56,070 bases of DNA. It comes from Sulfurimonadaceae bacterium. Lineage in GTDB: Bacteria > Campylobacterota > Campylobacteria > Campylobacterales > Sulfurimonadaceae. The notes beneath the pieces are model-generated. The model was given only the letters and a program-made list of their open reading frames with translations. It ran no database searches and was not told the origin of the DNA. The DNA is taken from NCBI GenBank assembly GCA_016744905.1, contig JADGDM010000010.1, positions 1-56,070 of the forward strand. The letters are read 5' to 3'. The translations under genes were made by a program, and so were the position numbers. Each line of letters begins with the position of its first letter. The stretch's first letter is position 1. Shown here one piece after another: positions 1 to 12,948 of this stretch.

Positions 1-753
1 GTTATAAAAGTAGGTAGTGCAGTTTTAACCCATAAAAATAATATTGCAAAAGAGAGAATGTTAAACCTTGTCCGTCTGATTTCAACACTTAGAGAAAGAT
101 ATGATGTTGTTTTAGTGACTTCGGGTGCTGTTGCAGCAGGATATTCAGCCTTAAAATTAGACAAAAGTAAGCAAATTGGTAAAAAAGCTATTGCGGCGGC
201 TGGTCAACCTATATTGATGACCAGTTATAAAAAGAAGTTTGATATTTTTGAAATTGATACGGCTCAAATTCTTTTGACTGAAGATGATTTTGATTCAAGA
301 AAAAGAACAAAAATGTTTCAAGAGATTATTGATGCGCATTTAGACAATGATATATTGGCAATTATCAATGAAAATGACATTACTTCAACCCCAGAACAAC
401 TTTTTGGAGACAATGATCAACTCTCAGCAACAGTGGCACATGCTATTAATGCTAATTTATTGATAATTCTTAGTGATATTGATGGCTATTATGATAAAAA
501 TCCTCAAGATCATGATGATGCACAAATTTATAAAGTGATGACTGAATTACCTGAGGGTGCTTTGAAAGATGATACAACCCCGAATAATGCATTTGCAACC
601 GGTGGGATAGTAACAAAATTAAAAGCTGCTGACTTCATGATGAAGAATGGTAGAAAAATGTTTTTAACCAATGGATTTGATTTATCTGCTGTTGAATCAT
701 TTCTTATAGATGATAAACATACTTTGGGCACGCTTTTTGAAGCAAAATCTTAA
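1..753 (+). CDS. proB: Glutamate 5-kinase, 5'-truncated by window edge
   Basis: First enzyme of proline synthesis, phosphorylating glutamate with ATP in the cytoplasm. The frame is open from base 1, so only the first few N-terminal residues are missing. Amino-acid-kinase motifs are visible: SGAVAAGY, AAAGQP, the substrate loop DNDQLSA and ATGGIVTK near the C-terminus. About 250 residues are present and the protein ends without the C-terminal PUA domain of the E. coli enzyme, as is usual for the short epsilonproteobacterial form. A 77-bp gap separates it from sbcD. No upstream gene is visible. Confidence 0.93.
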   Translation, partial: VIKVGSAVLTHKNNIAKERMLNLVRLISTLRERYDVVLVTSGAVAAGYSALKLDKSKQIGKKAIAAAGQPILMTSYKKKFDIFEIDTAQILLTEDDFDSRKRTKMFQEIIDAHLDNDILAIINENDITSTPEQLFGDNDQLSATVAHAINANLLIILSDIDGYYDKNPQDHDDAQIYKVMTELPEGALKDDTTPNNAFATGGIVTKLKAADFMMKNGRKMFLTNGFDLSAVESFLIDDKHTLGTLFEAKS

Positions 754-835: not shown

Positions 836-2017
836 ATGAAAATACTCCACACTTCTGATTGGCACTTAGGTCAAAACTTCATGGGTAAAAGCCGTGAAGA
901 AGAGCATCAAGCTTTCTTGTCATGGTTGTCTGAGACAATTATCTTTGAAAAAATTACTGTTTTGATTGTGGCAGGGGATATCTTTGATACGGGGACACCA
1001 CCGAATTACGCACTTGAACTCTATTACAATTTTTTAACCAAACTCTCCTTATCAGCATGTGAAAATATTATTATCACTGCTGGAAATCATGACTCTATAG
1101 CCACCCTTAAAGCCCCAAAACAGCTATTAAAAGCACTCAATGTTCATGTTGTTAGTAGTGTGGATGAAGATGAGTTGGTTCCTATTTATGAAGAGGAACA
1201 ACTTGTCTCGGTTGTCTGTGCTGTTCCTTTTTTACGTGATGCTATGGTACGTAAAGCGCAGTCATCTGAAACCTCAACAGATAAAGAAAATGCCTTAAGT
1301 GAAGGTATTAAAGAACATTATAAAAATATTTATGAAGAAGCAAAGTTTTTATGCTCAGGTGAGAATATCCCCATTATTGCCACTGGGCATCTGACGACGG
1401 TTGGCAGTAAGACAAGTGAAAGTGAACGTGAGATTTATATTGGGGGAACGCTTGATATTGACAGTGCGTTTTTAGGAAAATATTTTGATTATGTGGCATT
1501 GGGTCATTTACATATCAACCAAAAAGTGGGCTGTAATCATGTGCGTTATAGTGGCTCACCTTTGCCTCTTAGTTTTAGCGAAGCGCACTCGGTTAAAAAA
1601 GTAAATATTATTGATTTTTATGATGGGATACTGAATGTGGTAGAGAAAGAGATACCTCTTAACCGACCTCTTTTAGTCTTACGTGGAGATTTGGAAAATA
1701 TTTTAGTCTCTTTAGAAAAGATAAGCAATAAAAGCACATGGATAGAAGTACATCTCAAAGATGAAAATCCATTTTTTGCCAATCAAAGTGTACGTGAGCG
1801 CGCTAGTGAATTAGAGTTGAACCTTTTAGCAGTGAAAATTGAGCGAAAAGAGCAAGCCTTACAAGCCAAAGAGTTAGAGGTTATTAGCTTAGATGAGTTA
1901 ACTCCTTTGGAGGTGTTTGAACAGCGACTTGATCAAGATGAGTTAGAGAGCAGTGAATTAAAAGAAGCCTTGATTTTAAACTTCAAAAAGATAATGGATG
2001 AGGTAGCGCACAGATGA
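836..2017 (+). CDS. sbcD: Exonuclease SbcD (Mre11-type subunit)
   Basis: Nuclease subunit of the SbcCD complex, which opens hairpins and trims protein-blocked DNA ends. The N-terminus has the calcineurin-like phosphoesterase signature (ILHTSDWHLGQ, then AGDIFDTG, GNHDS, and further on GHLTTVG and ALGHLH). At about 393 residues it has normal family length. An in-frame ATG lies two codons upstream at 830; ATG 836 is preferred because the family starts MKILHTSDWH. Neither start has a clear Shine-Dalgarno. Its stop overlaps the sbcC start (ATGA), so the two are translationally coupled and presumably made in stoichiometric amounts. Confidence 0.95.
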   Translation: MKILHTSDWHLGQNFMGKSREEEHQAFLSWLSETIIFEKITVLIVAGDIFDTGTPPNYALELYYNFLTKLSLSACENIIITAGNHDSIATLKAPKQLLKALNVHVVSSVDEDELVPIYEEEQLVSVVCAVPFLRDAMVRKAQSSETSTDKENALSEGIKEHYKNIYEEAKFLCSGENIPIIATGHLTTVGSKTSESEREIYIGGTLDIDSAFLGKYFDYVALGHLHINQKVGCNHVRYSGSPLPLSFSEAHSVKKVNIIDFYDGILNVVEKEIPLNRPLLVLRGDLENILVSLEKISNKSTWIEVHLKDENPFFANQSVRERASELELNLLAVKIERKEQALQAKELEVISLDELTPLEVFEQRLDQDELESSELKEALILNFKKIMDEVAHR

Positions 2018-5000
2018 AGATACATTCACTTAAAGCACTTAATATTAACTCTCTAAAGGGTGAAATCTCTGTTGACTTTGAAGCATTGACAAAAGAGAGT
2101 GCACTTTTCGCAATTACGGGACCAACGGGTTCAGGAAAAAGTACACTGCTTGACATTATCTCTTGTGCACTTTATGGAAGAACGGCACGTCTTAAAAATC
2201 CCAATGACCTGATGTCACGTCATAGTGGTGAGGCATATTGTGAGGTGGAATTTGAGATTAAGGGAAAAGTATATCGCTCTTCTTGGTCTCAAAAAAGAGC
2301 GCGAAAAAAACATGATGGAAACTTTCAAAGTGCCAAAATGGAACTCTCAGATGTTGAGCGCGCTGAAGTTTTGATGACGGGTTCTAGAGAGGTTCCTAAA
2401 TATATCGAAGAACTCTCTGGTTTGGATTTTGGGCGTTTTACCCAGTCGATGTTGTTGGCACAAGGGGGCTTTGATGCTTTTTTAAAAGCAGATGAGAAAG
2501 AACGGTCAGCACTATTAGAAAAGATAACAGGCACGCAGATATATGCAGAAATCTCAAAAGCAGTTTATGAAAAGTACAGCGCGCTGGATAAAGACATGGA
2601 GGCGGATAGACGTGTCTTAGATTCGATGACACTATTAGAAGATGAGGCGTTAGCTAAAAAAGAGCAGGAATTACGTGAATATATGGTTCAAAAGTTAAGT
2701 AGCGATAAAGGGCTTGAAGAGATTCATAATGCGCTGCAATGGAGAAGCACACTCGATGAGATGCAAAAAAACTTTGATAAACAAGTTTTACTTTTATCCG
2801 AAGCCACACTTTTAAAAGAGCAGAGCAGTAATGATTTTGAAAAGCTCTCTTTGGCCGAACGTGCGCTCAATGTTGAAGCTACATGGCGCGCTAAGACCTC
2901 ACTAGTTAACTCTCTTTTGCTTGATAAAAAAAATCTACTGGGGCTTGAAGATGAACAAGTGCAGATGAATGAAGCATGGATAAAAGCCCAAGAACTTTCT
3001 ACTTTTTCAAACATAAGCTTTGAGAAAGCCCGTGTGCATTTTGAAAAAGAGAATACAAAACTAAAAGCTTTGGCGACTGTTTTAACACAAAAAGAAGAGC
3101 GCTCTCTTAGTCGAAGAAATTTAGAAGAGCGTATTGAAAATAGAGAAACTATTTTAAAAAAGAGTGATTCAAATCTTGTACAATTAGAATCTTCTTATGA
3201 AAAACAAAGTAGTGAGATTGCTGAGATAAAATCATATTTAAACACACATGCAAAAGATGAAGACCTGTCAGAATCTTTAGGCTTGATAGAGCAGAACATC
3301 ATCTACTATAGTGAATCCTTACTGAACAGCAGTAGTCTAAGTAGTACGCTAGAACAGCAGTCTATTCTGTTTGAAAGTGAAGCTAATACTTTTGAGTTAC
3401 TTAAAAAAAATGTGGACACTTTGAAAACTGTTTATGAAGAAGCACAGGAACTGTACAACAAAGTTGATACCAGTGCGCAAGCGTTTGCCTTAGAAGAAGC
3501 AGTGTTAGAGAAAAAAGTAAGTGTGGATGAAAAAGCGCTTTTCAATTTTCAAAAACATCAAGAGATTCTTCTGAAAATCAAGAGTGAAGAGCAGTCTTTA
3601 ATGATTGGTCGTATCGAGATGATAGCCAAGATAGAAATGAGCAAGCTCTCTTTGGCACATCTCGATGAGATGAAAAAACATATCCAAACATTGCGGGCGA
3701 AAAAAGAGCGTGAGCAGTTGATACAGAAGTATGAAGAGGATAGAACACACTTGATAGCGGGTGAAGCTTGTAGTCTGTGTGGTTCGTTAGAACATCCTTT
3801 TGTAGAGCATCAAAGTGAGATTCATTTGGATGCCACTACTTTTATGATTAATGAAGCGCTTGATATGTTGGCTATCAAAGAGAAAGATTTTCAAGTCATT
3901 GAAAACGGACTGAGTGTTCAAGAGAGTAAGTTAGAAAGTAGTGCTTTGGAGATAAAAAAACTTCAAGAAGAGCGTACGGTTTATCCTTTATCTACCCAGA
4001 GTGAAGTAGACTTGAAAGAAGATCTTGAAAATTCAAATACTGCGCTTCTTTCACTTAAAGAGAGACGACTCAAACAAGATCAACTTTTAAAAGCTTTGAG
4101 TTTAGCCAAAGAACAATTCAATAATGAAGAAAAACTCCTTGAAGCAAAGAGATTCTTAGTCCAAAAGTTAGAGAGTGAAAAAGTACAGAATCATAGTGCG
4201 CTGGAAACCTCAAACCTAAAAAGTGATGCTTATTTTAAAACGCTACAGGTATATGCCGAAAACTTTTCATTTTCACTAAATGATTTAGACTTGGCGCTAG
4301 AAGATTTAACTAAAAGAAAGGGATACTACTTAAAAACGCAATTATTGCTTAAAAGTAGTGAAGAGAAACTGGCGCTTTGTAGTGTGGACAAAAAAGAGAG
4401 TGAAACCACTATCAAAGCTTTGAGTGCTGAGATAGCGCGAGACAGAGAGAATTTGTCTAATATCATGACAGAGATAAAAGCCTTAGTCGAAGAGGGGATA
4501 AGGATACTCAACGTTGTGGACATTACACTTTATGAACGTGAGCTGGAACAAAACTATAAAGTGGCGCAAAGTAACCATCAAGAAGCACAGAATGCATTTC
4601 AAACTTTAGGTGTTCAACTAGAGGAGCGCGCTGAGGTAAAACGTGTTTTATCATTTCGTATTGATAAAGATGAAAGAGAGTGTTCTGCTTTAACACAGAC
4701 CTTTATCGCGCTACTTCAAGAGAACAGTTTTAAAAATGAGGACGTCTTAAAAGATGCGCTTTTAGAGAGTGAAGTACGTGAGCTTTTACGTAAAAAGTGT
4801 GAAGCCATCGAGACGAAGTTTACACAAACACAGGCACTCTTTAAAGAGAGTGAGAAGCGATTAAAAGAGCACGCAGGGATGAACCTCAGTTTGAAACCGC
4901 TTAGTGATCTTGAAACTAAGGCAGCGCTTTTAAAACAAAAAAGTGACAGCTTTCAACACAGCGTGGGTGCGCTGAGTCAAGAACTTGAAATAAACAGTGA

Positions 5001-5562
5001 GAAAAGTGCGGAATCTAAGAGTAAGGTCTTAGACTTAGGGAAGAAAAAAGAGAACTTTCGTGTCTGGGTGAAACTGCAAGAGCTTATCGGTTCTGCAGAT
5101 GGAACGAAGTTTAAAAAGTTTGCGCAAGGCATCACCCTAGATCAACTCATCACCCTTGCCAATCAACACCTAGAAGTTTTAAGTACGCGCTATACCCTTC
5201 TTAGAAGTGAAAACAAACTTTTAGAATTGGAAATAGTTGATGCCTACCAAGGCAATGTCGTTCGACCTGTTGGCACACTCTCCGGTGGAGAGAGTTTTAT
5301 TGTGAGTCTGGCACTCGCTTTAGGTCTCTCAGAACTCTCTAGTCAAAAGATATCTATCGATTCTCTGTTTTTAGATGAAGGATTTGGTACGCTGGATGAG
5401 GAGAGCTTAGAGTTGGCACTCAATGCACTCAACCTCTTACAAAGTAGAGGAAAGATGATTGGGGTTATCTCTCACGTTGAAGCGCTTAAAGAACGTATTC
5501 CCTTACAAATTAAAATCAATCCTAATGGCGATGGAACCAGCAGTGTGGAGATGTGTTTATGA
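2014..5562 (+). CDS. sbcC: Exonuclease SbcC (Rad50-type ATPase subunit)
   Basis: ATPase and coiled-coil arm of SbcCD. The 1182-residue protein has the SMC/Rad50 plan: Walker A GPTGSGKST near residue 40, a very long Glu/Lys/Leu-rich coiled coil, a zinc-hook CSLC motif near residue 586 halfway along the coil, then the returning coil, the ABC signature LSGGE and Walker B LFLDEGFGTLD near the C-terminus. It starts 4 bp inside sbcD and its stop TGA overlaps the ATG of the next gene in the same ATGA arrangement. The whole set reads as one operon. Confidence 0.95.
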   Translation: MKIHSLKALNINSLKGEISVDFEALTKESALFAITGPTGSGKSTLLDIISCALYGRTARLKNPNDLMSRHSGEAYCEVEFEIKGKVYRSSWSQKRARKKHDGNFQSAKMELSDVERAEVLMTGSREVPKYIEELSGLDFGRFTQSMLLAQGGFDAFLKADEKERSALLEKITGTQIYAEISKAVYEKYSALDKDMEADRRVLDSMTLLEDEALAKKEQELREYMVQKLSSDKGLEEIHNALQWRSTLDEMQKNFDKQVLLLSEATLLKEQSSNDFEKLSLAERALNVEATWRAKTSLVNSLLLDKKNLLGLEDEQVQMNEAWIKAQELSTFSNISFEKARVHFEKENTKLKALATVLTQKEERSLSRRNLEERIENRETILKKSDSNLVQLESSYEKQSSEIAEIKSYLNTHAKDEDLSESLGLIEQNIIYYSESLLNSSSLSSTLEQQSILFESEANTFELLKKNVDTLKTVYEEAQELYNKVDTSAQAFALEEAVLEKKVSVDEKALFNFQKHQEILLKIKSEEQSLMIGRIEMIAKIEMSKLSLAHLDEMKKHIQTLRAKKEREQLIQKYEEDRTHLIAGEACSLCGSLEHPFVEHQSEIHLDATTFMINEALDMLAIKEKDFQVIENGLSVQESKLESSALEIKKLQEERTVYPLSTQSEVDLKEDLENSNTALLSLKERRLKQDQLLKALSLAKEQFNNEEKLLEAKRFLVQKLESEKVQNHSALETSNLKSDAYFKTLQVYAENFSFSLNDLDLALEDLTKRKGYYLKTQLLLKSSEEKLALCSVDKKESETTIKALSAEIARDRENLSNIMTEIKALVEEGIRILNVVDITLYERELEQNYKVAQSNHQEAQNAFQTLGVQLEERAEVKRVLSFRIDKDERECSALTQTFIALLQENSFKNEDVLKDALLESEVRELLRKKCEAIETKFTQTQALFKESEKRLKEHAGMNLSLKPLSDLETKAALLKQKSDSFQHSVGALSQELEINSEKSAESKSKVLDLGKKKENFRVWVKLQELIGSADGTKFKKFAQGITLDQLITLANQHLEVLSTRYTLLRSENKLLELEIVDAYQGNVVRPVGTLSGGESFIVSLALALGLSELSSQKISIDSLFLDEGFGTLDEESLELALNALNLLQSRGKMIGVISHVEALKERIPLQIKINPNGDGTSSVEMCL

Positions 5563-7046
5563 ACCTCTCTAAGTCACTCTACACGAAGGGCATTCAGTGT
5601 GAAAAACTGCTTTGGATAACAAAATACAAAAAAGAACTTCTCAGCTCTCCTGATGCCAGCGCATTGGCACGTTTTGAAACAGGTAATGTGGTAGGTGATT
5701 TGGCGTGTGCACTTTTTCCAAACGGTCGTGAAGTTCCTTACACACCTACTGATTTTCAAAAGATGTTAGAGACCACAGCGCGCTGGATGGAAGAGGGATT
5801 AGAATACATCTATGAGGCAAGTTTCCTCCATGCGGGTATCTTGGTTTTGGTTGATGTTTTAAAGGTGACCCCTCAAGGTCTTGAGATCTATGAGGTGAAA
5901 AGTTCGACTTCACTCAAAGATATCTATCTTCATGATGTCTCTATCCAACACTACGTGCTCAGAGCGCTGGGCTTTAATATTGTGGGTGATTATCTGGTGC
6001 ATATAGATAAAGAGTATATTTACTCTGGCGTGCTGGAGTTGGAGAAGCTTTTTAAGATTGTAGATGTTGGTGATGAGGTGGGCGCGCTACTGCCTGAGAT
6101 TCCTACTAAATTGGCGTCTTTTGAGAACTGCCTAAATGACAAAGAAAATGAACCGGATATTGATATCGGATCACACTGTAACAAACCTTATGAATGTGAA
6201 CTCAAAGCGTATTGTTGGCAAACACAGCACGCTATCCCTGAGTACTCGATGTTTAATATTTTTAATCTGGGTTCTAAGAAACAGCTTGAACTTTATGAAA
6301 AAGGTATTGTAGATATAAAAGATATCCCTGATGATTTTCCTATGACGGCACTTCAAAAGCAGAAAGTTGCAAACTACAAAGCAGAAGAAACATATATCGA
6401 TAAGGCGGGCATTCAAAGCTTTTTAGAGACCTTGAACTATCCAATTTATCATCTGGATTTTGAGACTTTTCAGCAAGCGATTCCTGAGTTTGAGGGTTTG
6501 AGTCCTTATGTACAGATTCCTTTTCAGTACTCGCTACATATTGAGCGCGCTGATGGGACGCTGGAACATAAAGAGTTTTTAGCCAAAGAGGGAGAAGACC
6601 CCCGATTGACACTGGCAGAGCAGTTGGTTCAAGATATTCCTGAGGATGTTTGTGTTTTGGCGTACAACATGAGTTTTGAAAAAGGGGTCAATGCCAAACT
6701 TGCAGATCAGTTTCCGCATTTAACTGCCCATCTTTTGAAAATCAATGAAAATATAAAAGACCTTATGGTACCGTTTCAGAAAAAATATTATGTGACACCG
6801 TCGATGCAGGGGAGTTACTCTATAAAGTATGTCCTTCCTGCCTTGGTTCCCTCTATGGAAAATGCCTATCAAGAACTGAACGGTATTCAAAATGGAAGTG
6901 ACGCCATGAATGCTTTTCCTGCACTCAGCGCGCTGGACGACGAAAAAAGATTAGCCACACGTAGCGCATTACGCGCGTACTGTAAGCTCGATACATTGGC
7001 GATGGTAAAAGTACTAGAAAAACTAAAAGAGGTTTGTGATGATTGA
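5559..7046 (+). CDS. DUF2779-type protein: Cas4-like nuclease module fused to a DEDD exonuclease-like module
   Basis: Predicted double-nuclease protein of 495 residues; no biochemical function is established for the family as far as I know. The N-terminal part resembles Cas4/PD-(D/E)XK nucleases: Cys14, an EVK motif at about 112-114, and a cysteine cluster C207, C213, C219 that with Cys14 could bind an iron-sulfur cluster. The C-terminal part has RNase H/DEDD-like motifs: DFET (D300, E302), AYNMSFE and YCKLDT. ATG 5559 is chosen over GTG 5553 because GGAG lies 8 bases upstream. It is embedded between sbcC (4-bp overlap) and dgt (8-bp overlap), which points to a role in DNA end processing or defence. 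Confidence 0.8.
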   Translation: MNLSKSLYTKGIQCEKLLWITKYKKELLSSPDASALARFETGNVVGDLACALFPNGREVPYTPTDFQKMLETTARWMEEGLEYIYEASFLHAGILVLVDVLKVTPQGLEIYEVKSSTSLKDIYLHDVSIQHYVLRALGFNIVGDYLVHIDKEYIYSGVLELEKLFKIVDVGDEVGALLPEIPTKLASFENCLNDKENEPDIDIGSHCNKPYECELKAYCWQTQHAIPEYSMFNIFNLGSKKQLELYEKGIVDIKDIPDDFPMTALQKQKVANYKAEETYIDKAGIQSFLETLNYPIYHLDFETFQQAIPEFEGLSPYVQIPFQYSLHIERADGTLEHKEFLAKEGEDPRLTLAEQLVQDIPEDVCVLAYNMSFEKGVNAKLADQFPHLTAHLLKINENIKDLMVPFQKKYYVTPSMQGSYSIKYVLPALVPSMENAYQELNGIQNGSDAMNAFPALSALDDEKRLATRSALRAYCKLDTLAMVKVLEKLKEVCDD

Positions 7047-8490
7047 TTATACAAAGAAAATTAGAAGTGATAGAGAAGTCTATCCGATAGAGGATATCAA
7101 CTACTCCAGCGAAAGTGACCGAGGACGTATCATCTCTTCACCTGCTTTTAGACGTCTTCAAAAACGTACCCAAGTCTTTCCCCTTGAAATGAATGCCGCT
7201 GTACGTAGTCGTCTCACACATTCACTGGAAGTGCAACAGACCAGTCGTTATATTGCTAAAACTATCTTGGCGTCTATTAAAGAAAATGGCGAGACTGAGA
7301 AGTTTGGACTGAGCGGTTTAGAAGATGCTTTTATCTCCATTTGTGAGATGTCTGCACTGCTTCATGACATCGGAAATCCTCCTTTTGGTCACTTTGCGGA
7401 AGCGTCGATGAATCGATGGATTGCCAAAGAGATTCCTACTGTTTTTGAGAAGTTTGAAGAAGATGCGTTTAAAAGTATGTTGATTAAAGATTTGAGTAAT
7501 TTTGATGGGAATGCACAGGCGATACGTATGGTTGAAAAACTACAACGTCTAAACCTCTCCTACACCCAAAGTGCCTCAGTTTTAAAATACACACGCGCCG
7601 CAGGAAGTTCCAAACCTTTAAAATCAGAACCACTCTCTTATGTCAAAAAGAAACCAGGATTTTACTACTCAGAAGAAGCCTTTGTAAAAAAAATGTGTAG
7701 CGCGCTGGGTATGGAAGAGGGACGTCGTTTTCCACTGACCTATATCATGGAAGCGGCGGATGATATCTCTTACCTGACGGCAGATATCGAAGATGCAGTT
7801 GATAAAGGTATCTTAACGTTAGAACGTATTTATGAACTGATCCAGATAGAGATCATGGCCGTTTATAAAGATGAGGTATTAGAAGAGACCTACCTTATGA
7901 AGTTGGTTGAAAAAGCCTACACCAATGCACGAAAAAATGAAAAACCCTATCAGTTTAATATGTTCCTCACTCTCCTGCGCGCTTGGCTCATCAATGATCT
8001 GGTAAAACATGTAAGTCACGTCTATCTTGAAAATCATCAAGCCATTTTTGACGGGGAATTTAACAGTGCGTTACTAGAATTTGAAAGTAACAGCAGCTAC
8101 ACAAAGGCAGTAAAAGCCTTACAAATACTCTCTATTAAACATATCTACGGAAACCACGAAGTAGAGACTTTAGAGCTAAAAGGTCACGCTATCTTAACAG
8201 GTTTACTCAATCATTACCGACCTGTTTTAGAGTTGGATAAAGAAGAAGTCAGCGCGCTGGTAGAAGAGAAAAGAGTAGACGATGTTATCGCTCAAAAACT
8301 CTTCCGTAGGCTCTCTAAAAAACATGTGGTCGCCTACTCCAAAAGTGTTGAGCTAATTGATGAGACTTTTTGTGAAGAGAAAAAATCTGTTTTAGAACTT
8401 TACTATAGAGTGAGACTTGTATTAGACTACATCAGTGGTATGACAGATGATTACGCATTACAAGAGTTTCAGACCTTGTCTGCGTTGTAG
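7039..8490 (+). CDS. dgt: Deoxynucleoside triphosphate triphosphohydrolase (dGTPase family)
   Basis: HD-domain enzyme that hydrolyses dNTPs to deoxynucleoside and triphosphate. The N-terminal SSPAFRRLQ segment, the RLTHSLEV histidine, the metal-binding HDIGNPPFGH signature and a later EAADDISYL match the family. The 483-residue length is typical. ATG 7039 is preferred over GTG 7036 because AGAGG sits 6 bases before it; this start overlaps the preceding nuclease gene by 8 bp. Being last in an operon with sbcCD and a nuclease, it may adjust the nucleotide pool or destroy dNTPs during repair or phage infection; that link is inference. Confidence 0.9.
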   Translation: MIDYTKKIRSDREVYPIEDINYSSESDRGRIISSPAFRRLQKRTQVFPLEMNAAVRSRLTHSLEVQQTSRYIAKTILASIKENGETEKFGLSGLEDAFISICEMSALLHDIGNPPFGHFAEASMNRWIAKEIPTVFEKFEEDAFKSMLIKDLSNFDGNAQAIRMVEKLQRLNLSYTQSASVLKYTRAAGSSKPLKSEPLSYVKKKPGFYYSEEAFVKKMCSALGMEEGRRFPLTYIMEAADDISYLTADIEDAVDKGILTLERIYELIQIEIMAVYKDEVLEETYLMKLVEKAYTNARKNEKPYQFNMFLTLLRAWLINDLVKHVSHVYLENHQAIFDGEFNSALLEFESNSSYTKAVKALQILSIKHIYGNHEVETLELKGHAILTGLLNHYRPVLELDKEEVSALVEEKRVDDVIAQKLFRRLSKKHVVAYSKSVELIDETFCEEKKSVLELYYRVRLVLDYISGMTDDYALQEFQTLSAL

Positions 8491-12423: not shown

Positions 12424-12948
12424 ATGATTGTACTAGATTTTGAGACCAACAGTGGAAATGTTCAAGATGTTATTGAGGTAGCAGCGTGCAAAGTGCGTAA
12501 AGAAAATGGGCAATATATTGTTGTGGAGACTTTTCATCGTTATTATTATTCGCAGTATGAGGTAAACCCTTATGCGCTGGCTGTGCATAAACTCACCCCA
12601 GAGGCTATTGAAATCCTTCGTGAAGATAGCGATGAGGCTGAGTATGTGGAGTACTTTAAAGATGATGAAGACTTTATTGCCTTTGCGTCTGACTCTGAAA
12701 CCTTAGTCGCACACAACATCAACTTTGAGTTACGTCATCTTAATGGATGTGTGGAGTTTGAAAATCATCTCTGCACCATGAAAGAGAATAAAAAAGCGGT
12801 TCAAGCGAAAAATATAAGAGGCAATCTAAAAAATCCAAAACTTATCGAAACTTGTCTGCACTATGGTATAGATTTTGATGAAGAGCAGTATCATAGCGCG
12901 CTGTATGATGTAGAGAAGACTATTGACATACTTAATTGTATGCCGTAG
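12424..12948 (+). CDS. DEDD-family 3'-5' exonuclease (DnaQ/RNase T-like)
   Basis: A single exonuclease domain of 174 residues. Motif I is VLDFETN near the start, motif II is AHNINFE, and motif III is the C-terminal SALYDVEKT with His replaced or shifted. It resembles the epsilon proofreading subunit or RNase T but is too short to carry extra domains. Whether it acts on DNA or RNA cannot be told. It is separated from the divergent barrel gene by 128 bp and convergent with the YceI gene, 15 bp away. Confidence 0.8.
   Translation: MIVLDFETNSGNVQDVIEVAACKVRKENGQYIVVETFHRYYYSQYEVNPYALAVHKLTPEAIEILREDSDEAEYVEYFKDDEDFIAFASDSETLVAHNINFELRHLNGCVEFENHLCTMKENKKAVQAKNIRGNLKNPKLIETCLHYGIDFDEEQYHSALYDVEKTIDILNCMP

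Follow-up and report, generated by a model that had tools for sequence, protein, structure and literature searches.

The sbcD-sbcC-DUF2779-dgt operon of a Sulfurimonadaceae bacterium: probably a modular, transferable anti-phage defence locus in its cargo-free state

The window analysed here is a stretch of 56,070 nucleotides, and near its start four genes, sbcD, sbcC, a gene of the DUF2779 family and dgt, follow one another on the same strand (Table 1); this set is called the frame below. The reading frames overlap by 4 bp (sbcD/sbcC, ATGA), 4 bp (sbcC/DUF2779, ATGA) and 8 bp (DUF2779/dgt, ATGATTGA), as an earlier note on this DNA had described, and the ORF coordinates, the family assignments and the intact catalytic motifs agree with that description; an in-frame ATG at 830 is a possible alternative start of sbcD. 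The window sequence retains the SbcD motifs DWHLG, GDIFD, GNHD and LGHLH, the Walker A, CSLC zinc hook, LSGGE and LFLDE motifs of SbcC, and the RLTH, HDIGN and DDI motifs of Dgt, all intact. The phosphoesterase motifs of SbcD and the ATPase and zinc hook of SbcC, encoded by adjacent genes, identify the first two products as an SbcCD pair. At window positions 1-753 lies proB, a second glutamate 5-kinase paralogue, with another copy on contig C37 (55% identical); when a chromosomal empty site was sought through this gene, the proB neighbours in relatives did not match the window. Some 4 kb downstream of dgt, a gene for a DnaQ-like exonuclease (174 aa, 12424-12948) has homologues, about 60% identical, in the island of locus L185, just before dgt, and in L186.

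Table 1. Frame genes and slots of the window, and defence systems found as cargo in related loci
Feature	Window position or locus	Strand	Evidence
sbcD (Mre11-type nuclease), frame gene 1	836..2017	+	TIGR00619 E=1e-67; Metallophos + SbcD_C; motifs intact
sbcC (Rad50-type ATPase, CSLC zinc hook), frame gene 2	2014..5562	+	NF007600 E=3e-146; AAA_23 + SbcC_Walker_B
DUF2779 gene, frame gene 3	5559..7046	+	PF11074 E=3e-47; invariant residues; AF2 model + Foldseek
dgt, E. coli-type dGTP triphosphohydrolase, distal frame gene, optional	7039..8490	+	HD + HD_assoc; PRK04926 equivalog
Slot A, sbcC/DUF2779 junction (ATGA), empty in window	5559..5562	+	Cargo at this point in relatives
Slot B, DUF2779/dgt junction (ATGATTGA), empty in window	7039..7046	+	Cargo at this point on plasmids
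Gabija cargo	L188 (GajA 1e-187, GajB 2.5e-241), L177		PADLOC
Lamassu cargo (LmuA/LmuB)	L181, L187, slot A		PADLOC
SIR2-HerA cargo	L178		PADLOC
Qat cargo (QatA/QatC)	L197		PADLOC
Old cargo	L093, L195		PADLOC
DRT cargo, RT_UG6	L180		PADLOC
Ppl cargo	L190		PADLOC
PADLOC candidate systems as cargo	PDC-S06: L192, L194; PDC-S53: L186; PDC-M49: L184		
ThsB-like TIR protein as cargo	L208		PADLOC

The product of the third gene exceeds the gathering score of DUF2779 (PF11074) by a wide margin (160 versus 23.3 bits) and carries two nuclease modules. Its N-terminal half is a Cas4-like PD-(D/E)XK domain with C14, C207, C213, C219, D99 and E112-V-K114; the four cysteines together with D99, E112 and K114 are invariant among 32 diverse homologues, which assigns this half to the Cas4-like (DUF83) nucleases. 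The C-terminal half shows the DEDD-like motifs D300-F-E302, N370-xx-F-E374 and Y474-xxx-D478, of which D300/E302 and Y474/D478 are invariant and N370 is nearly invariant in 32 homologues, while motif II has an invariant Glu (E374) at the usual Asp position. The AlphaFold model of the window protein (pLDDT 93.5) was compared with the PDB by Foldseek: the best relevant matches were Cas4 proteins (7mi4, 4r5q), covering the N-terminal half, the top one being the Cas4 of a Cas4/Cas1/Cas2 integration complex, and weaker matches were obtained with DEDD-type exonuclease domains, e.g. those of HSV polymerase and 3'hExo. Invariant residues and structural matches thus bear out the earlier reading of this gene as a fusion of a Cas4-like Fe-S module with a DEDD-like module. 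The pairing is already published (PMC3985635): in the passages of that paper that were found, DUF2779 appears as family F.17 (RNase H-like + DUF83), with the same two-nuclease architecture and a predicted 3'-5' exonuclease activity. Those passages mention no operon or defence context, and the SbcCD-linked subclade described below is new here. In phages, only C-terminal fragments of DUF2779 were found.

The fourth gene, previously assigned to the dNTPases, indeed encodes a member of that family, an E. coli-type Dgt with the HDIGN motif (544 bits against the NCBIfam dGTPase model PRK04926, cut-off 405; E=1.6e-62 against the PADLOC dGTPase model; relatives 7w1f/4x9e). Against the anti-phage dGTPase family NF041026 it scores 164 bits, below the curated cut-off of 400, and it is filed as Dgt. 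This gene is the looser member of the frame. Of 37 long-dgt genes, 22 are located no more than 20 kb from DUF2779 or a remnant of it; where downstream sequence is available, dgt is adjacent in about one fifth of the loci and farther downstream in about one fifth more, and it stands alone in genomes G003, G008, G009 and G020. Since the window dgt is sister to the stand-alone dgt of G008 (73%), apart from most linked dgts, it appears to have joined the frame, or to have been replaced, separately. Furthermore, the typical ATGATTGA overlap stems from the conserved MIDY start of dgt, so that the DUF2779/dgt junction can re-form. A third way of pairing dgt with DUF2779 is seen in L203 and L204 (genomes G291 and G343), where DUF2779 is immediately preceded by a divergent dgt and a 231-aa gene and the stretch contains no SbcCD.

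Of 397 Campylobacterota genomes, 109 contain DUF2779, 34 a long dgt and 55 sbcD, a patchy distribution that marks all of these genes as accessory. Their co-occurrence, calculated over the 397 genomes without regard to phylogeny, is strong (odds ratio 15 for DUF2779-dgt and 22 for dgt-sbcD). Within Campylobacterota, 27 of the 33 distinct loci of one DUF2779 subclade are preceded by a same-strand SbcCD, as against none of 12 loci with more distant DUF2779. The members of this subclade are about 59% or more identical to the window protein; the 33 loci were drawn from DUF2779 loci with at least 57% identity to it and at least 8 kb of upstream sequence, the window included; 27 of 34 loci were listed initially, L021 and L231 being one locus that was counted once, and the sbcD of L020, which bears on this count, lies just beyond its locus region and was found in the wider context. 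In the DUF2779 tree, all SbcCD-linked loci fall within one clade of 42 (SH-aLRT 98). Two very different SbcCD types occur upstream of the subclade genes, a canonical, window-like one (about 395 + 1190 aa) and a short divergent one (372 + 789 aa), and the SbcD type switches at least four times inside the linked clade; hence the SbcCD-DUF2779 linkage outlived changes of partner. The six loci without SbcCD upstream count against reading the frame as a defence locus, and so does the grouping of the window dgt with a stand-alone gene.

The co-occurrence check proposed in the earlier note therefore places the close DUF2779 subclade with SbcCD. The prospect that DUF2779 and dgt lie elsewhere in most relatives, and that the neighbourhood is fortuitous, does not hold for sbcCD-DUF2779 and holds in part for dgt, which is also found alone. 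Single occurrence of the members in some genomes would suit a chance neighbourhood, but gene order and strand are constant in many genera and on plasmids, and a same-strand SbcD no more than 12 kb upstream, expected in about 0.2% of cases by a rough estimate for a 2.5-Mb genome, is observed in about 80%; these linkage counts and the sister-plasmid comparison given below rule chance out. The linkage does not extend to the whole family, as 43-57% identical homologues from Firmicutes, Helicobacter, Bacteroidales and others have no SbcCD in the flanks examined, except L115. In this locus, from an uncultured Ruminococcus, a distant DUF2779 gene (44%) is followed by SbcD- and SbcC-like genes, possibly an independent linkage. 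A fused form was also noted: in L199 (genome G394), the N-terminus of DUF2779 is extended, at the position of slot A, by some 270 aa that form an alpha/beta-hydrolase-like domain.

Relatives without the cluster carry stand-alone sbcCD pairs among ordinary genes, and stand-alone sbcCD and dgt in such contexts fit repair or dNTP-pool roles. SbcCD is, moreover, a known end-processing repair nuclease that acts on hairpins and blocked ends (PMC6265447). The operon could thus be a housekeeping repair unit, in which SbcCD opens hairpins and blocked ends, DUF2779 finishes resection and Dgt tunes dGTP, the defence genes being incidental. A simple conserved housekeeping set was rejected, as each gene is patchy and alone in some genomes; this accessory distribution, the carriage on plasmids and the repeated presence of defence cargo inside the operon make the repair reading quite improbable.

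Slot A is occupied in most relatives by up to 9.6 kb of defence genes, and slot B, too, is often filled, the modules in both being interchangeable and on the operon strand; on Aliarcobacter plasmids slot B holds 2-4 kb of helicase/ATPase genes along with genes of no assigned family. PADLOC family matches numbered 323 in the cargo versus 74 in genes just outside the frame; AbiE and RhuM-like genes are also present near it. The cargo is oriented with the operon: 81 of 83 ORFs of at least 100 aa, called mechanically between sbcC and DUF2779 in 22 occupied loci, lie on the operon strand, and in these loci the median gap is 12 bp from sbcC to the first cargo gene and about 0 bp from the last one to DUF2779. 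Slot A is empty in L200 (genome G289) and in the window, where both slots are empty. The occupied counterpart of the window is L093 (sbcD 69%, DUF2779 71%, the same 8-bp dgt overlap), whose slot A contains one Old-type gene between sbcC and DUF2779. Relatives of the window thus display what defines a hotspot or island, namely unrelated defence systems in one place between conserved flanks, and the window itself is cargo-free. The earlier note, drawn from this cargo-free state, did not include interchangeable defence systems between the genes. Large cargo genes recur in L178/L179 (about 1120 and 440 aa) and in L177/L194 (about 900 aa), one of them protein-kinase-like; they are candidates for unrecognised defence systems.

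Comparison of six loci revealed that sbcDC (about 91% identical where compared) and DUF2779 (83-92%) are highly conserved, whereas the cargo shows essentially no homology, the sole exception being one 78-bp match in one pair. Across these loci, homology breaks off with the stop codon of sbcC and returns with the start codon of DUF2779. The sbcDC of L197 fell outside this measurement and is 93% identical to that of pAFAEC in the plasmid comparison. The latter comprised four Aliarcobacter/Arcobacter plasmids with the same backbone (pACRY43158, p133_LEO_107, pM830MA and pAFAEC), all arranged as sbcD-sbcC-[A]-DUF2779-[B]-dgt, with DNA identities of 92-93% for sbcDC, 89-96% for DUF2779, 88-99% for dgt and 97-98% for the downstream flank. 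No two of these four dgt-bearing plasmids have related contents in slot A; slot B is unrelated as well, except that pM830MA and pAFAEC, despite their different slot A, share an identical slot B (100%), indicating that the two slots exchange separately. A fifth plasmid, pCNAC48, has sbcD, sbcC and DUF2779, with slot A contents that partly resemble those of p133_LEO_107 (65%). It lacks dgt (locus L261); the position that dgt takes on the sister plasmids is filled by ereB, msr(D), mef(A) and transposase genes.

Several loci retain 5' stubs of DUF2779 of 26-94 codons (L177, at about 7853-7975, L178, L179, L182, L209, L210 and L211), located just before cargo genes, either in the interval from sbcC to an intact DUF2779 or at places from which DUF2779 has been lost. 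Recurrent stubs of about 27-40 codons suggested site-specific integration at the 5' end of DUF2779, but this was rejected: stub and downstream gene are common to L177/L209 and to L178/L179, and in L194 an apparent homologue of the L177 gene comes after a complete DUF2779. It is therefore simpler to regard the stubs as remnants of older DUF2779 copies, presumably traces left during rebuilding of the locus. The precision with which cargo begins at the stop of sbcC and ends at the start of DUF2779, the stubs beside cargo genes and the Foldseek match to an integration-complex Cas4 could also mean that the frame itself captures cargo, SbcCD and the Cas4-like trimming nuclease processing ends so that cassettes are joined at the sbcC/DUF2779 boundary. 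We consider this highly improbable, as neither a constant integrase-like gene nor a repeated terminal sequence was seen at frame loci, homologous recombination with selection for operon structure explains the identical boundaries, and the stubs can be leftovers of older copies.

Collectively, the linkage, order and strand of the genes, the exchange of cargo at two points, the carriage on plasmids and the intact motifs of the window, all read directly from the compared sequences, suggest that the operon is probably a modular anti-phage defence locus, transferable and, in the window, free of cargo. The proposal of a coupled DNA-end surveillance or defence module thus stands as a genomic linkage in a defence setting, with dgt as the more loosely attached member. 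The constant genes of the locus are sbcD, sbcC, the dedicated DUF2779 subclade and often dgt, and whole defence systems are swapped at two points, directly behind the stop codons of sbcC and DUF2779. Judging from its family, SbcCD would recognise and cut abnormal ends, hairpins and blocked ends, e.g. phage replication or packaging intermediates, and DUF2779, with its Cas4-like and DEDD-like modules, would degrade or trim the resulting ends. Dgt-type enzymes can restrict phage through dNTP depletion (PMC12265719), and Dgt of the frame would likewise drain dGTP, starving phage synthesis and repair. More speculatively, SbcCD and DUF2779 may act on shared DNA ends as a first layer of defence, to which the cargo, expressed along with them, would add further ones; in that case the window strain would possess the first layer and Dgt alone.

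On the other hand, the locus could be a passive hotspot, sbcCD, DUF2779 and dgt serving as mere homology-arm flanks with ordinary repair and dNTP roles and no part in defence. Hotspots between conserved genes are known (PMC10250203), the cargo systems are of self-sufficient types, and the flanks are nearly identical while the cargo differs, as exchange by homologous recombination predicts. However, the flanks are not core genes, as their counts in the 397 genomes indicate, the frame occurs in differing chromosomal and plasmid contexts, its linkage survived the switches of SbcCD type, and the cargo is inserted operonically on one strand. The frame is also kept together without slot A cargo, in L200 and in the window, and that it endures in the window with no cargo at all speaks, though short of proof, for a role of the frame itself rather than for a purely passive hotspot. 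We therefore hold the passive reading to be a serious but minority possibility. A more ambitious variant of the defence reading, itself rather doubtful, is that SbcCD and DUF2779 could constitute a universal DNA-end sensor and processing core wired to unrelated defence systems, whose activity, or inhibition by phage, would trigger the system docked in slot A or B, by analogy with PrrC as a guard of type I restriction enzymes; where nothing is docked, the core and Dgt would act alone. Since the cargo systems are complete and work alone elsewhere, they need not depend on SbcCD-DUF2779.

The proposed defence locus connects a classical repair complex, SbcCD, and a so far uncharacterised double nuclease with bacterial immunity across an entire phylum. 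The sbcC/DUF2779 and DUF2779/dgt junctions are predictable places to seek new defence systems, and several cargo genes at the slots belong to no known family. More generally, the frame raises a testable question, whether a defence system encoded in one operon with a DNA-end nuclease acts through this enzyme or just travels with it, for which the window, with both slots empty, is a natural control.

Complete anti-phage systems are likewise swapped between conserved flanks in the core defence hotspots of P. aeruginosa (PMC10250203) and in the island repertoire of E. coli (PMC10121019). In contrast to these, the flanks of the frame are themselves accessory nuclease and dNTPase genes forming one operon, on plasmids as well as chromosomes, and the cargo enters inside this operon, at two fixed gene junctions and on one strand. 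Extra effectors in or beside a DNA-targeting operon are also known from type I restriction-modification (hsd) loci, with PrrC linked to type Ic hsd and with RloC (PMC2610378), and from BREX loci with auxiliary effectors (PMC12839542); the frame differs from both in consisting of SbcCD, DUF2779 and dgt, with no methyltransferase or specificity subunit. As in the bacterial Mre11-Rad50 complex SbcCD, the window sbcD and sbcC have all nuclease, ATPase and zinc-hook motifs; unlike ordinary SbcCD, they form a fixed operon together with DUF2779 of a dedicated subclade, which in relatives includes defence cargo, and a second, short SbcCD type takes the same position at other loci. Lamassu and Wadjet couple Rad50/SMC-like DNA sensing to nuclease effectors in defence (PMC10586767), whereas LmuAB appears here as slot A cargo and the frame itself holds true SbcD and SbcC. 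The dGTPase defence and Clover (PMC12265719) use the same enzyme type to deplete dNTPs and restrict phage, but the window Dgt resembles the E. coli housekeeping enzyme and has no adjacent NTase (CloB) gene. The two-slot SbcCD-DUF2779-dgt frame is not described in the literature searched, which lay mostly outside subscription journals and bioRxiv, so that this absence is no proof; the passage found of PMC6690266 tabulates the four genes on pM830MA without comment. Operons of the hsd/PrrC and BREX types and defence hotspots are already known; the SbcCD-DUF2779-dgt frame with its two slots is new to the searched literature.
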